Assembly (NCBI GenBank): GCA_902793435.1
Contig: CADBDF010000007.1
Location: forward strand, 1-51,301
Length of the DNA: 51,301 nucleotides
Reading direction: 5' to 3'
Source of the DNA: an uncultured Pseudomonadota bacterium
GTDB taxonomy: Bacteria; Pseudomonadota; Alphaproteobacteria; Rs-D84
The notes under the pieces were generated by a model. It searched no databases. It had not been told where the DNA came from and saw only the letters and a list, made by a program, of their open reading frames with translations. Below, piece by piece: positions 17,429-51,246 of this stretch. Position 1 is the first letter of the stretch. Each line of letters opens with the position of its first letter. A program made the translations under genes and the position numbers.

Positions 17429-17433
17429 GAAAA

Positions 17434-17459
17434 AAACACCGATATTTCTATCGGTGTTT
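17434..17459 (-). terminator. Terminator of the secreted 273-residue protein gene
   Basis: A perfect 11-bp stem (17434-17444 with 17449-17459), with a T run on the minus strand, about 70 bases after the stop codon of the minus-strand gene. Confidence 0.85.
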
Positions 17460-17529
17460 CTTGATTTAGAAACAAAAGCCTCTTGTTTTTTTATGGGAGT
17501 TGAATTCGGGGCTTTCTAAATCAAAACTG

Positions 17530-18351
17530 TCAATCTGCGTTTTCAATAATCTCGTACCAATGGGGTTGGCCGGCGTCGTCTTCGACCAGCAGGCATTTTT
17601 TACCGGCGGGGCAGTTTTCGTCCGGGCGGGTTTGTTTGGTTGTCTGTAAATCCGCAATCGCCGCGGTTTGATTGATTGTGTTTGTGACAACATCGCGTAT
17701 CGTCGCAATCGTGTCGTTTAATTCCGTTACCACAGGGCTAAACCGCGCACTGTTATACGCCGTCGTCGCAATTTTGATTTGATTTGCGCAATAAGTGGTT
17801 TCGTTCCAATTTTCTGTGGTTTCTGTTGCCAATGGATAATATACAGTCACTGGGTGCGAAGATAACCAAGATTTCCAAGTGGGAACATCTGTCGCAATAT
17901 CAACAATTGAAAAGTTTATCCTTTGTGATGAAACACCATAAAAAGAACCACCATAAGTTGTTGTAGATTGATTAGATGCAAAATGTGTGCTGATTCCATT
18001 TACACCAATTTGTCGGTTTGTTATTGTGTTATCTGAATAAACAGATGAGTTATTATTATTAGTATTCAATATCCACTCCTCCGTACCATTTAATACCTTG
18101 ACACCTACACGTCTTGTGATTTTACCGGTGGTGGCGTCGTATGAATCGGCATAGTCACCAACTTTGCGCAACACCATATTACCCTGGGTATAAAATGTTG
18201 GGGTGATTGGGTTTGCGGGTGTTGGCGTGCCGTTTTGCACGACGGTACCGGTTGCCGATGTATATGTTTGTTCGACTTGCCCCGACGGACACGCGGCAAA
18301 TACCGGCAATGTCAGTATCAATCCCAACAATGCGCATAATAACTTTCTCAT
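17530..18351 (-). CDS. Secreted tail-fibre-like protein with CPAGKKC module, copy 1
   Basis: A 273-residue protein from ATG 18351. The signal peptide is MRKLLCALLGLILTLPVFA, then ACPSGQ. The first half contains a phage-tail-like stretch (NGTPTPANPITPTF, about residue 40) and YYPLATETTENW. Residues about 190-273 form the module shared with the proteins at 44485 and 49960: TTAYNSARFSPVV, a helical INQTAAIADLQ stretch, RPDENCPAGKKCLLVE (Cys 247 and 253), and HWYEIIE at the end. It lacks the LamG-like N-terminal module of the other two. GGGGAG precedes the start; an in-frame ATG at 18384 lies in the leader terminator and was rejected. Expression is probably controlled by the structured leader at 18383-18520. 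Role inferred: surface adhesin or binding protein. Confidence 0.75.
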   Translation of the reverse strand: MRKLLCALLGLILTLPVFAACPSGQVEQTYTSATGTVVQNGTPTPANPITPTFYTQGNMVLRKVGDYADSYDATTGKITRRVGVKVLNGTEEWILNTNNNNSSVYSDNTITNRQIGVNGISTHFASNQSTTTYGGSFYGVSSQRINFSIVDIATDVPTWKSWLSSHPVTVYYPLATETTENWNETTYCANQIKIATTAYNSARFSPVVTELNDTIATIRDVVTNTINQTAAIADLQTTKQTRPDENCPAGKKCLLVEDDAGQPHWYEIIENAD

Positions 18352-18382
18352 GTTTTCTCCCCTTTGTGTTTTTTTGCATCGC

Positions 18383-18520
18383 AAAAAATAAAAACACCGC
18401 TAACGAGAGAAGCGGTCGGGGGTGTTCGAAAAATCAAAACATGACAATGATCCCGCATGCCTTTGCGTGCATGCAGCACCCCCGCCAAAAACGGCCCAGG
18501 GTCAATCATTGGGAGTTATT
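18383..18520 (-). promoter_or_regulatory. Candidate cis-regulatory leader RNA with terminator (riboswitch-like)
   Basis: Read on the minus strand toward the gene at 18351, the leader holds three things. First, a junction: CAATGAT+CCC (18445-18454) pairs with GGG (18499-18501) and ATCATTG (18505-18511), and encloses the hairpin GCATGC/GCATGC and a GCC/GGC hairpin. Second, CACCCCCG (18477-18484) is exactly complementary to CGGGGGTG (18417-18424), outside the junction, so it would form a pseudoknot or an alternative fold. Third, an intrinsic terminator (ACCGCT/AGCGGT, 18396-18416) with a T-rich tail lies about 32 bases before the start codon. This is the layout of a transcription-attenuating riboswitch or similar element. 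The ligand is unknown. Confidence 0.5.
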
Positions 18521-18542
18521 GTTCAATACTTACATCGCGCAT

Positions 18543-18578
18543 AAAAAAAGCATCGATAAATTGAGCAACTATCGATGC
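18543..18578 (-). terminator. Minus-strand intrinsic terminator upstream of the leader
   Basis: A perfect 9-bp stem GCATCGATA / TATCGATGC (18550-18558, 18570-18578) is followed on the minus strand by seven T. It would end a short minus-strand transcript arising between 18579 and 18835, or act as a first control point of the downstream leader. Confidence 0.7.
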
Positions 18579-18835
18579 AAAACCTGAATTAGTTATATCA
18601 ATCCACATGAAAAATTATCACATGGTTTTTGGATAACAATGCAAATTTTGCATCGGTCATGTTTATAAGGCTTTTCGAAGGCCCCGAATACAATTCCCGT
18701 TGTATTCAAAATTCAGTATATAAAATTTATTTTTGTTTCTGCAAGTGGTATTTTTATGCAATTAAAATCAATAACTTGTTAATTGAACTTTGCCCTTTAA
18801 GATATCGTAATTTTGTGATATAATATATTCATAAC
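18579..18835. other. AT-rich intergenic segment with promoter of the 752-residue protein
   Basis: No ORF of substance. It contains a GAATACAA/TTGTATTC hairpin (about 18686-18709). At its right end is TATAAT (18819-18824), which ends 11 bases before ATG 18836, so the 5' leader is about 5 bases and has no Shine-Dalgarno. No good -35 box is visible. Confidence 0.5.
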
Positions 18836-44316: not shown

Positions 44317-44394
44317 CTTTTGGGAATTTTGTGATTTTTTATAACATATTGATTTTACGACAAAAGTAAATTTTCATTTTTTTGAAAAAAGTTG

Positions 44395-44424
44395 TTGCTT
44401 TTAAACCTAGGTTTTTTGTATATT
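44395..44424 (+). promoter_or_regulatory. Promoter of the 614-residue secreted protein with CCTAGG operator in spacer
   Basis: TTGCTT (44395-44400), 18-base spacer, TATATT (44419-44424), about 60 bases before ATG 44485. The spacer holds the perfect palindrome AAACCTAGGTTT (44403-44414), the same core as the larger palindrome at 44285-44316. The downstream leader (from about 44431) is almost identical to that of the gene at 49960-51246. Confidence 0.6.
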
Positions 44425-44430
44425 CATTAT

Positions 44431-44484
44431 ATAGCGAAAAACCGCGGATTTCCGCCAGTTTATAAAGTCGAGAGAGTTGCGAAA
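44431..44484 (+). repeat. Conserved 5' leader shared by two secreted paralogs
   Basis: From TATAG at 44431 to the ATG, the sequence is the same as the leader of the minus-strand gene (51247-51301) except for two bases near its outer end. It includes a hairpin GCGGATTTCCGC and ends in GAGAGAGTTGCGAAA before ATG, the GAGAGAG serving as Shine-Dalgarno. Confidence 0.75.
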
Positions 44485-46329
44485 ATGTCTGCAAAACGTG
44501 CATTTTTTGGTATTTTTCAAAAATTAGTGGTGGTTTGCTGTGCCATATTTTTTGGATTTGCCAACGCATTTTCCGCAAATTTACCCGCCGGTTATACAGA
44601 GTTGGAGTATATAGAATCCACCGGCACACAATGGATTGATACGGGGATAAGCTTTGCTTATTCTGACGTTTTACGTATAGTTGCCGATATGCAATATACA
44701 GATTTACCAAGTGGCGCTTCACAATATTTTGGAATATATGGCGGTGCTTATTTCGGTGTTACTAATTCGTCTTGGAGTGTTGGTGGAAATGCACAAGGCA
44801 CAGCAAATACCACAAGGCATGTTTTTGATTTTAGCACTACGATAGGCACAAACCAAGTGCAGACGCTGAAAGTTGACAATGTATCTTATGCGAATACAAG
44901 AAACAATCAAAATGGTAGAGTTGGTGTTTTAAATACTGTCTCTGGGACTTATTTTAACCATGCAAAGTTGTACAGTGTTAAAATTTATAAAAACAGTTCG
45001 TTAACCTTTGATGGTATTCCAGCCAAATACGGTAATGTTGTCGGTATGTATGATACGGTTAATAATGTGTTTTATACAAATCAGGGTACTGGAACATTTA
45101 CTGCCGGACCCGCCAAGTGCAGGAATTTGTTTGATAAAAACAACACAAACACTGCCGATGGATATATAGCAAACGCTTATTTAAATTCCAATGGTGTCGA
45201 GGTTTCAAGCAACAGTTATGCCATCAGTGTATATATTCCAGTAGAGGGGGATACTAAGTATTACTATTCTATAAATGGTACAGATGGTCAGGTGGCTACA
45301 GGTCATTCCGCACCACGTGTTGCATATTATGATGCCAATAAAGTGTATATATCAAGCTCTAACGGGCTTTCAGGTGGCGCTTCATTCCAAACACCAGTGA
45401 GTTGCAAATATATTAGGGTGCCAATTTATAAAGAGGCATTGGAACATGGCATTCAACTGGAACAAGGTACCACCGCAACCGATTATGTTCCGTTTTGTGC
45501 ATCGGAAATAAAAATTGCCACAACTGCATACAATACGGCGCGGTTTAGTCCAGTCGTAAATGATTTAAACAGCACGGTGGCGACCATACGCGATATCGTG
45601 ACGAATACTATCAATCAAACCGCCGCAATAGCCAGTTTGCAAGCGGACAAGCAGACCCGCCCGGACGAAAACTGCCCCGCTGGCAAAAAATGTTTATTGG
45701 TCGAAACCGAGGAAAACGGTGTCATTGTTCCACACTGGTACGAAATTATAGAAAATATTTATGGTCTGCCTGCTGGATACACCGCGTTGGAATATATACA
45801 AAGTGACGGCGCAAGTTATCTTATTGTGCCATATCGCGTGAATAACAAAACTGTGTTTTATTGCAGATATAATGAACTTCAAAATACGTTGAGTGCCGCA
45901 ATTATATTTGGTGTCACAGATGCCCCAAATGTATCAAAGGCAAATAACGGTATTTTAAGATTAACCGGCATAAATCGTATGGGTTGGGGTGATTCCACAT
46001 CGGGTTCTATAATCGATGTCAGCGCACCAAAAGCGTTTAACACATGGTATGAGGTTTTGTATGACCAAAATAAATTATATCAAGATAATGTATTATATGC
46101 GACTTCTGCAACACAACCCAGCACCAGTTGGACCGCGAATTATGATTTGGGTATTTTTGCAAGAAATGGTCCTTCTGTGACATTTCCATCAAAAGCAAAA
46201 ATATCAAGTGTTTGGGCAAAAGAAAATGGTGAATATAAAATCAATCTTGTGCCGGCAAAGCGCAACAGCGATAATGTAATCGGTATGTATGATGGTACTG
46301 GGACATTTACCGCCGGCCCAGAGATTTAA
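44485..46329 (+). CDS. Secreted LamG/tail-fibre-like protein, 1.5-unit copy
   Basis: A 614-residue protein from ATG 44485. The signal peptide (1-31) has a long n-region and ends ANAFSA. Residues 32 to about 205 are a LamG/concanavalin-like module starting LPAGYTELEYIESTGTQWID and ending GTGTFTAGP. Then comes a phage-tail-like binding module (AKCRNLFDKNNT to IQLEQGTTATDYVPF). The shared module follows (343-425: TTAYNTARFSPVV, coiled-coil-like INQTAAIASLQ, CPAGKKC at 397-403, VPHWYEIIEN). From about 427 a second LamG module (LPAGYTALEYIQSDG) begins and stops at GTGTFTAGPEI, exactly where other copies would go on to AKCRNLF. The protein is one full unit plus a partial one. The longer frame back to 44392 runs through the promoter. 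Surface binding role inferred. Confidence 0.78.
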   Translation: MSAKRAFFGIFQKLVVVCCAIFFGFANAFSANLPAGYTELEYIESTGTQWIDTGISFAYSDVLRIVADMQYTDLPSGASQYFGIYGGAYFGVTNSSWSVGGNAQGTANTTRHVFDFSTTIGTNQVQTLKVDNVSYANTRNNQNGRVGVLNTVSGTYFNHAKLYSVKIYKNSSLTFDGIPAKYGNVVGMYDTVNNVFYTNQGTGTFTAGPAKCRNLFDKNNTNTADGYIANAYLNSNGVEVSSNSYAISVYIPVEGDTKYYYSINGTDGQVATGHSAPRVAYYDANKVYISSSNGLSGGASFQTPVSCKYIRVPIYKEALEHGIQLEQGTTATDYVPFCASEIKIATTAYNTARFSPVVNDLNSTVATIRDIVTNTINQTAAIASLQADKQTRPDENCPAGKKCLLVETEENGVIVPHWYEIIENIYGLPAGYTALEYIQSDGASYLIVPYRVNNKTVFYCRYNELQNTLSAAIIFGVTDAPNVSKANNGILRLTGINRMGWGDSTSGSIIDVSAPKAFNTWYEVLYDQNKLYQDNVLYATSATQPSTSWTANYDLGIFARNGPSVTFPSKAKISSVWAKENGEYKINLVPAKRNSDNVIGMYDGTGTFTAGPEI

Positions 46330-49959: not shown

Positions 49960-51246
49960 TTATTCTTCGGGCGCTTCAATAATTTCATACCAATGCGGGA
50001 CAATAACGCCGTTTTCTTCGGTTTCGACCAATAAACATTTTTTACCGGCGGGGCATTGTTCGTCTGGGCGGGTTTGTTTGGTTGCCTGTAAATCTGCAAT
50101 CGCCGCGGTTTGATTTATCGTTTTTGTGACAACATCGCGAATAGTTGCAATCGTGGTATTCAAATCATTTACAACCGGATTAAACTGTGCAGTATTATAT
50201 GCAGTTGTTGCGATTTTGATTGCGTTTGAACAAAACGGCACATAGGCTGTTGCGGTTGAACCTTGTTCTATCTGCACATCAGGCGCAGTACCAACCGTCA
50301 GGTTATTAGCAATATAGAAGTTGATGTATTTTGCATTAGATGGTGTAGTAATAGTTGTTGCGCCTGTTGTAATTGAACTTATAAAGTTTTTATTTGCATC
50401 ATAAAACAACCATCTCATACCCGATGAAAGTGAATAATCAGGACACGACACAGTATAATTTGTTGATGGTTTAACTTGTATCATATTGGCATTACAAATA
50501 CGGTTACTATTAGGTGCATAATTACCTCTTGTTGTACTATAAAGACCTTGTTGCCATTGACCATCAAACAAATTCCGGCACTTGGCGGGTCCGGCGGTAA
50601 ATGCACCTGTGCCACCATTGGTTAAGAATTTGTCCGAAACCAAATCATACATACCCAACACATTATCTGAATTTCTACGACAAGGAACTAGGTTTTGCGC
50701 CAAAACACCGTTAGTCCATTTCTTATATCCAAATATTTTCAACGCACCAAAATAATCACTGCCCGTTGCGTGAATTGCGAATAATGTTGCTGTTTTCGGT
50801 GTTGTAATGCTAACATTGCCTTGTGTAGCAATTGTCGTGCCGTCTATCTTAAAAATACCACCATTATGTTCTATTTGTAGTGTATGTTTATTGGTGTCTG
50901 CATCTATATCAAGTGTTGGAGTGCTGTTTCCCCACCCAACCCTATACTTTAGCGTCGAAGATATTGCAAAAGTATAAACGTTACTGCTCGTATAATTACG
51001 TGCGCCAAAAAGACTATTCCCATCAGGTTTTTCTATCGCTTGGAAAATCAGTTCTATGTCATCTGTTGCGGTGTTTAAAGTATACCCCGTATCAATATAC
51101 TGTGTTCCGGTGGATTCGATATATTCTAATTCTGTATATCCGGCGGGTAAATTTGCGGAAAATGCGTTGGAAAATACAAAAAACATGGCACAGCAAAATA
51201 CAGCTAATTTTTGAAAAATACCAAAAAATGCACGTTTTGCAGACAT
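49960..51246 (-). CDS. Secreted LamG/tail-fibre-like protein, single-unit copy
   Basis: A 428-residue protein. The signal peptide (MSAKRAFFGIFQKL to ANAFSA, 1-31) is nearly identical to that of the gene at 44485. A LamG-like module (LPAGYTELEYIESTGTQYID to GTGAFTAGP) is followed by a tail-fibre-like module (AKCRNLFDGQW to VQIEQGSTATAYVPF). The shared C-terminal module ends the protein: TTAYNTAQFNPVV, INQTAAIADLQ, CPAGKKC (398-404), VPHWYEIIEAPEE. The central parts of the two copies differ, while the ends are conserved. The conserved leader runs to the window edge, so the promoter lies outside. GAGAGAG is the Shine-Dalgarno. Likely exported and surface-exposed; ligand unknown. Confidence 0.78.
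   Translation of the reverse strand: MSAKRAFFGIFQKLAVFCCAMFFVFSNAFSANLPAGYTELEYIESTGTQYIDTGYTLNTATDDIELIFQAIEKPDGNSLFGARNYTSSNVYTFAISSTLKYRVGWGNSTPTLDIDADTNKHTLQIEHNGGIFKIDGTTIATQGNVSITTPKTATLFAIHATGSDYFGALKIFGYKKWTNGVLAQNLVPCRRNSDNVLGMYDLVSDKFLTNGGTGAFTAGPAKCRNLFDGQWQQGLYSTTRGNYAPNSNRICNANMIQVKPSTNYTVSCPDYSLSSGMRWLFYDANKNFISSITTGATTITTPSNAKYINFYIANNLTVGTAPDVQIEQGSTATAYVPFCSNAIKIATTAYNTAQFNPVVNDLNTTIATIRDVVTKTINQTAAIADLQATKQTRPDEQCPAGKKCLLVETEENGVIVPHWYEIIEAPEE

Follow-up and report, generated by a model that had tools for sequence, protein, structure and literature searches.

One of the closest described counterparts of the element analysed here is the C4 RNA of phage P1. In the annotated c4 locus of this phage, a promoter is followed by a1, b1, the C4 RNA, a2, b2 and the start of icd, with a1 located in a hairpin loop and the a' strand (CUGUCAA) located between P3 and P1'. 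About 21 chromosomal C4-like sRNAs (Group 1) within a single genome, with a variable a' region and GGW processing, have been described in A. baumannii (PMC5320573). A further family, sRNA-Xcc1, precedes symE in integron cassettes of Xanthomonas (PMC12444791). Rfam holds no link between sRNA-Xcc1 and the C4 clan.

Comparison of a leader on the minus strand of the window (the whole stretch of 51,301 nucleotides that was analysed, from an uncultured alphaproteobacterium of the order Rs-D84) with these systems suggests that it is probably a chromosomal C4-type antisense repressor gene, equipped with its own promoter and terminator and situated immediately ahead of its target. This unites the structured leaders of the order with sRNA-Xcc1 and the C4 RNAs of phages, until now separate, in a common architecture that includes a covarying pseudoknot. 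A testable mechanism can also be offered for sRNA-Xcc1. This kind of RNA is already known, and the surprise lies in the copy number and the gene targets, with a phage immunity-type RNA multiplied in small host-associated genomes ahead of secreted, restriction-modification and regulatory genes.

Architecture of the leader

The original prediction placed a riboswitch-like leader at 18383-18520, with a multi-helix junction, an intrinsic terminator, a Shine-Dalgarno (SD) sequence and an ATG in order on the minus strand. All of these are present, and the stretch is real but makes up merely the 3' third of an element about two to three times longer, which by sequence and comparison runs from promoter to intrinsic terminator (18744-18383, minus strand). 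The leader promoter comprises a -35 element (TTGCAG, 18739-18744) and, after a spacer of 18 nt, a -10 element (TATACT, 18715-18720). These are followed by P0, a 5' hairpin with a stem that covaries among copies (GAATACAAC-GGGA-ATTGTATTC, 18686-18707), and by the PK hairpin (GGGGC-CTTCGAAAA-GCC, 18669-18685), the loop of which is an a1-like sequence (TTCGAAAA, 18672-18679). A CsrA site, considered on account of the resemblance of the GGGA loop, was dropped as type B copies have GUGUU-like loops. The variable linker (18487-18668), recognised from alignments and inspection, contains covarying helices, for example GATGCAA/TTGCATTG, GTTATC/GATATAAC and GCATCGATA/TATCGATGC, and is nearly missing from short subtypes of the RNA in the alignments.

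The C4-like core (18414-18486), delineated by two covariance models (R1 and R2) and by covariation, consists of the helices P1, P2 (18470-18476 with 18453-18459) and P3 (18448-18451 with 18433-18436). The 8-base complementarity that had been put forward as a pseudoknot or competing fold (CGGGGGTG / CACCCCCG, 18477-18484 with 18417-18424) is exact, but represents the junction-closing helix P1 instead. The true pseudoknot is formed between the PK loop and the a' strand (TTTTCGAA, 18425-18432), which together with P1' is the putative antisense to the ribosome-binding site (RBS). The intrinsic terminator (ACCGCT-TCTCTCGTT-AGCGGT followed by TGTTTTTATTTTTT, 18416-18383) opens with the bases ACC, which double as the end of P1', and was overlooked in the promoter/terminator scan because its loop of 9 nt is beyond the loop limit of the scan. 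Downstream lie the RBS and start codon (AAAGGGGAGAAAAC ATG, 18349-18365; SD GGGGAG, ATG at 18351), a putative a2/b2-like target, while a divergent plus-strand gene (18836) is found on the far side of the leader.

Covariation and the pseudoknot

Folded on its own, the window copy is little more stable than expected by chance (z about -1.9), and the case for structure thus rests on comparison. The comparative evidence proves that the conserved structure is real. Across 94 homologues, pairing amounts to 93.7 % over the 25 modelled pairs and to 98 % in the terminator helix, with 501 both-sides-changed cells versus 131 in shuffles, in an alignment fitted to the structure. A MAFFT alignment of the 3' module (23 sequences), built independently and without structure, yielded 49 such cells versus 15 in shuffles, and slid pairings, serving as control, drop to background. 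Compensatory changes in homologous leaders, which the original prediction had proposed to look for, are therefore plentiful. P0 likewise shows compensatory changes among the copies of the own genome, where GAATACAAC-GGGA-ATTGTATTC is replaced by GAAAACAAC/GTTGTTTTC or GAATATAAC/GTTATATTC.

The 5' hairpin and the subsequent G-rich hairpin could be found in 73/82 copies when the 3' part was ignored while locating them, and this pair usually lies directly after a TATAAT-like box. In nearly all copies the -10 box agrees with TATAAT in five to six of the six positions, directly 5' of P0. Complementarity between the PK loop and the strand just 5' of P1' has a mean score of 6.53, versus 3.99 +/- 0.13 when permuted (2000 permutations; maximum 4.56), and scores of at least 7 are reached by 67 % of copies versus 4 % in the permutations. 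The a1 loop and a' thus form a pseudoknot with many compensatory changes, including the loop/strand combinations UCGAAAC/GUUUCGA, UCGUAAC/GUUACGA, UGACUAC/GUAGUCA and UAACGAC/GUCGUUA. The a' words within one genome are almost all distinct (15/17 and 25/28), with the unpaired a' highly variable between same-genome copies and the P2 internal loop partly conserved. P1 occurs in the sub-types GGUCGGGG, GGUUGGAGG and GGUCAGGAGG, each retaining all parts of the element, and begins with GG(U/C) in most copies.

Relationship to known RNA families

As the original prediction had noted for riboswitch classes, no known family could be matched: an Rfam scan of the window and related loci returned none at threshold for these copies, and a known riboswitch or housekeeping RNA was rejected on this basis. 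Threshold matches in the scanned loci were restricted to rRNA and tRNA, plus sRNA-Xcc1 within phage loci, and no tmRNA was detected by ARAGORN. The C4 clan (RF01695 / CL00128) gave no gathering-score match in the window or related loci, the best being 24/41 bits for c4-2 in copy C12. The nearest Rfam family is sRNA-Xcc1 (RF02221), with scores of 49.2, 39.4, 38.0 and 36.9 bits versus a cut-off of 53, the best of these corresponding to an E-value of about 1e-5 in a 62-kb search; the window copy itself shows no match to this family. When aligned to sRNA-Xcc1, one related locus (L070) displays the P1/P2/P3 plan, the AUACAA..AA internal loop and a UUUU..A strand before P1', and P2 is shortened in the clade of the window copy. 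The likeness of the unit to sRNA-Xcc1 thus encompasses P1, P2 with an A-rich internal loop (UAUACAA...AA), P3, and a U-rich a' followed by P1'. It differs in scoring below the cut-off and in being longer, with P0 and the terminator recognised.

BlastN comparison of the sRNA-Xcc1 consensus against phage records identified members in Aaphi23, Acinetobacter 4316, Rac-SA53, Pmp3, Mcat15 and an Stx-type phage, all above the cut-off. Each of these is located directly upstream of an antirepressor gene (ant), a KilA-N gene or an unnamed gene at that position, the distance to the ant/KilA-N genes being 25-40 nt. The phage loci share the PK hairpin and its pairing. For example, the GAGGCG-UCGAAAC-CUC hairpin of Rac-SA53 is that of two of the loci studied here (L171, L215), while in phi296 the loop word AACTTCAAAG recurs at the ant RBS. 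Members preceding phage antirepressor genes were catalogued as L224 (phage phi296) and L219-L223.

The C4 RNA of phage P1 (RF01695) equals the unit in topology and part order and has a' at the equivalent position, and P0 resembles the first hairpin of c4-a1b1 (RF03163) in phage P1. The three-helix plan with a single-stranded a' beside P1', characteristic of C4, is evident from the covariation and the P1 alignment, and an upstream a1 copy and a downstream RBS target, both complementary to the RNA, are present statistically. The RNase P site of C4, a GG-start of P1 with a CC(A)-like 3' side (PMC5320573), is also resembled. Several differences were nevertheless observed. Phage P1 C4 scores 2.1 bits against the R2 model, which is no significant match, and no terminator is annotated between C4 and its target in phage P1, whereas the unit here always has one. 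Furthermore, a' is predicted to pair together with P1' to the SD-to-ATG spacer, unlike in the C4 of phages P1/P7, which differs also from the many copies and chromosomal targets (secreted proteins, methyltransferases, XRE regulators) found here. By model score the unit thus belongs to no Rfam family, while its anatomy follows the C4 plan. The targets of the A. baumannii Group 1 sRNAs are unknown (PMC5320573), whereas 14-52 copies occur here in genomes a quarter the size, each just ahead of a gene with a matching RBS. In its proposed mode of action the unit resembles the phage P1 repressor C4, from which its descent is not proven.

Distribution and downstream genes

The 189-nt leader recurs at three further sites in the same 898-kb genome (79-85 % identity), and the homology within this genome extends about 250 nt more upstream, including a promoter-like TTGCA/TATACT and the P0 hairpin. 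BlastN analysis of 148 relatives supplied the diverse members of the 23-sequence alignment, from which covariance model R1 was constructed; the second model, R2, was built from 94 sequences. With such custom models, the use of which in relatives had been suggested with the original prediction, 14 copies were identified in the own genome and 20, 28, 29, 30, 33 and 52 copies in six near-complete genomes of the same genus, each of about 1 Mb (R1), while the RNA is present in 136/142 genomes of the order (R2). Outside the order, 25/381 genomes of the class, across about fifteen families, were positive (R2). The density amounts to approximately one copy per 20-65 kb. Two sequence patterns for the alphaproteobacterial type retrieved fifteen and zero viral contigs, with one true model match. 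Some copies of the RNA also occur as divergent pairs with about 1 kb between them (L186, G049:C2:161695 and 162711; G039:C4:79619/80636; G051:C42:3203/4219), each member facing outward into its own secreted gene.

An open reading frame starts 8-50 nt past the terminator on the same strand in about 67/82 copies, and in 55/74 copies of a second set. This gap is too short for a separate promoter of the downstream gene. Across copies, the terminator lies 10-45 nt before the SD. The gene downstream of the window copy (17530-18351, minus strand) encodes a 273 aa protein with a signal peptide and has more than twenty paralogues in this genome. Its original description as tail-fibre-like reflects motif resemblance only, with no significant match in Pfam or PHROGs. 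The gene belongs to a large modular secreted family (17530-18351, 44392-46329, 49960-51246 and about twenty other loci in the genome) with a common C-terminal part of about 90 aa and N-terminal modules NGTPTP..P or LPxGYTELEYIESTGTQYI, and several contigs terminate within its members. Using a crude signal-peptide rule, 77/121 downstream genes appear secreted, compared with 27/144 control ORFs from these loci. Their products also contain twice as much cysteine as the controls (4.5 % versus 2.2 %). Other downstream genes, on the basis of Pfam, code for C5 cytosine, EcoRI-type, N6/N4 and N-6 DNA methylases, HTH/XRE regulators, family 2 glycosyltransferases and an outer-membrane barrel. The short subtype (about 170 nt) regularly precedes HTH-like proteins of 70-95 aa (G049 loci L204, L207, L210, L212, L214 and L217; C1:39593 and C6:37546 in the own genome).

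Complementarity to the ribosome-binding site

Across 67 loci, a'+P1' is complementary to its own RBS at -11.43 kcal/mol, versus -10.17 kcal/mol when permuted within P1 subtype (p<=0.0002; p=0.0012 when each similarity cluster is reduced to one representative). The result was repeated in 55 independent loci of other genomes (p=0.0002; representatives p=0.0012), where reversed RBSs, as control, had no significant effect. In the first set, reversed RBSs likewise outscored the permutations to some degree (z -3.1), and base composition therefore contributes there. The own-target advantage is modest: the mean rank of the own target within its genome is 0.22-0.28 (0.5 being chance) and it is the best in 11/67 loci only. 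With the own target averaging only in the best quarter, cross-talk between units is possible. The a1 loop has words in common with its own RBS (p=0.0016), a result of statistics over the copies and not one for each single copy. In the window copy, the strongest predicted contact is between the terminator loop (UUCUCUC) and GGGGAGAA in the RBS (-10.4 kcal/mol), and a'+P1' is predicted to contact the RBS at -8.7 kcal/mol. As a general anti-SD the terminator loop was rejected (p=0.56 for cluster representatives), strong as it is in the window copy.

Proposed mechanism and alternative explanations

The C4 part order and the antisense strand matching its own RBS point to repression through RNA-RNA pairing in place of ligand sensing by a riboswitch. 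Of the riboswitch-like leader originally proposed, the conserved structured leader is supported. A sigma-70 promoter (about 18744-18715) would give rise to an RNA of about 300 nt carrying, in order, P0, the PK hairpin (a1 decoy), the linker, the P1/P2/P3 core, a free a' just 5' of P1', and the terminator, which would release the antisense RNA. RNase P may process this transcript at the GGU start of P1. The downstream mRNA would arise only by read-through of the terminator or by transcription from further upstream, and a'+P1', in the window copy also the terminator loop, may pair with its SD and spacer, possibly in trans, and thereby block and repress translation. Since the PK loop holds a copy of the target sequence, it would either store a' in the pseudoknot or compete for it. 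The variable a'/a1/RBS barcode could represent a naturally occurring collection of antisense repressors that are orthogonal to one another.

An unlikely alternative is that the leader attenuates transcription in cis, as a riboswitch or in response to a protein, with the pseudoknot and P1 taking the ACC from the terminator to permit read-through. The nearly invariant ACC common to P1' and the terminator stem corresponds to the layout of an ON-type attenuator, the terminator lies at short distance before the SD and always, unlike in the phage P1 annotation, between core and target, and a single class of leader precedes many genes. However, the contested terminator pairs number only about three of six to seven, and the pseudoknot strand differs in nearly every same-genome copy, unlike a ligand pocket. 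The match of a'+P1' to the own RBS and the position of the phage orthologues upstream of ant likewise favour the antisense repressor. As ACC is shared, attenuation stays in play; it may operate through the terminator as well, and both mechanisms could act together.

Still less probable is an independent trans-acting sRNA gene with a neighbour carried along by duplication and without regulatory link. Its own promoter and terminator would suit such a gene, as would the joint duplication of RNA and gene in copies C7, C11, C2 and C5 and the insertions of 230-360 bp before the gene in C5 and C12, but in different genera and families the RNA is followed by unrelated genes at a short and constant distance, and the own-RBS complementarity was observed in two sets. 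These insertions are dispersed repeats between terminator and RBS (L011 3990-3700; L054 1166-1510).

A 3'UTR stem-loop in the clade of the window copy

The gene downstream of the window copy is followed on the minus strand by a 3'UTR stem-loop (17461-17524), the loop of which (GCCCCGAATTCAACTCCC, 17495-17512) shows complementarity to the P0/PK part of the leader, and by a terminator (17430-17459). In this clade the stem comprises 12-15 bp with covarying sides, and loop and leader are complementary over 16-18 nt. About 11/12 leaders of one genome (G028) have such a 3'UTR partner 1.2-2.2 kb downstream. One idea is that the loop titrates the repressor precursor or brings about its cleavage.

It is conceivable, though we lean against so broad a reading, that in this order of genome-reduced Alphaproteobacteria a domesticated phage C4-type antisense RNA has become the main RNA regulator, with dozens of units per genome whose near-unique a'/a1/RBS barcodes of 7-8 nt direct the silencing of genes for surface, restriction and regulatory functions, one by one or with cross-talk, and whose repressor is released or degraded by the 3'UTR stem-loops in the window's clade. 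Least probable of all is a mobile cassette, with inverted repeats (GGGARTTGTATTCGGGGC ... GCCCCGAATTCAACTCCC) as the boundaries of the unit in this clade. Matching inverted elements 1.2-2.2 kb apart do flank leader and gene (G028, G000) and the secreted gene family is multi-copy, but the element on the 3' side forms the loop of an RNA stem that covaries and is systematically unlike the 5' element, the RNA occurs elsewhere without it, and the copies are strongly diverged. The 3'UTR stem-loop was also observed at G000:C2:110201, C13:21966 and C8:21276.
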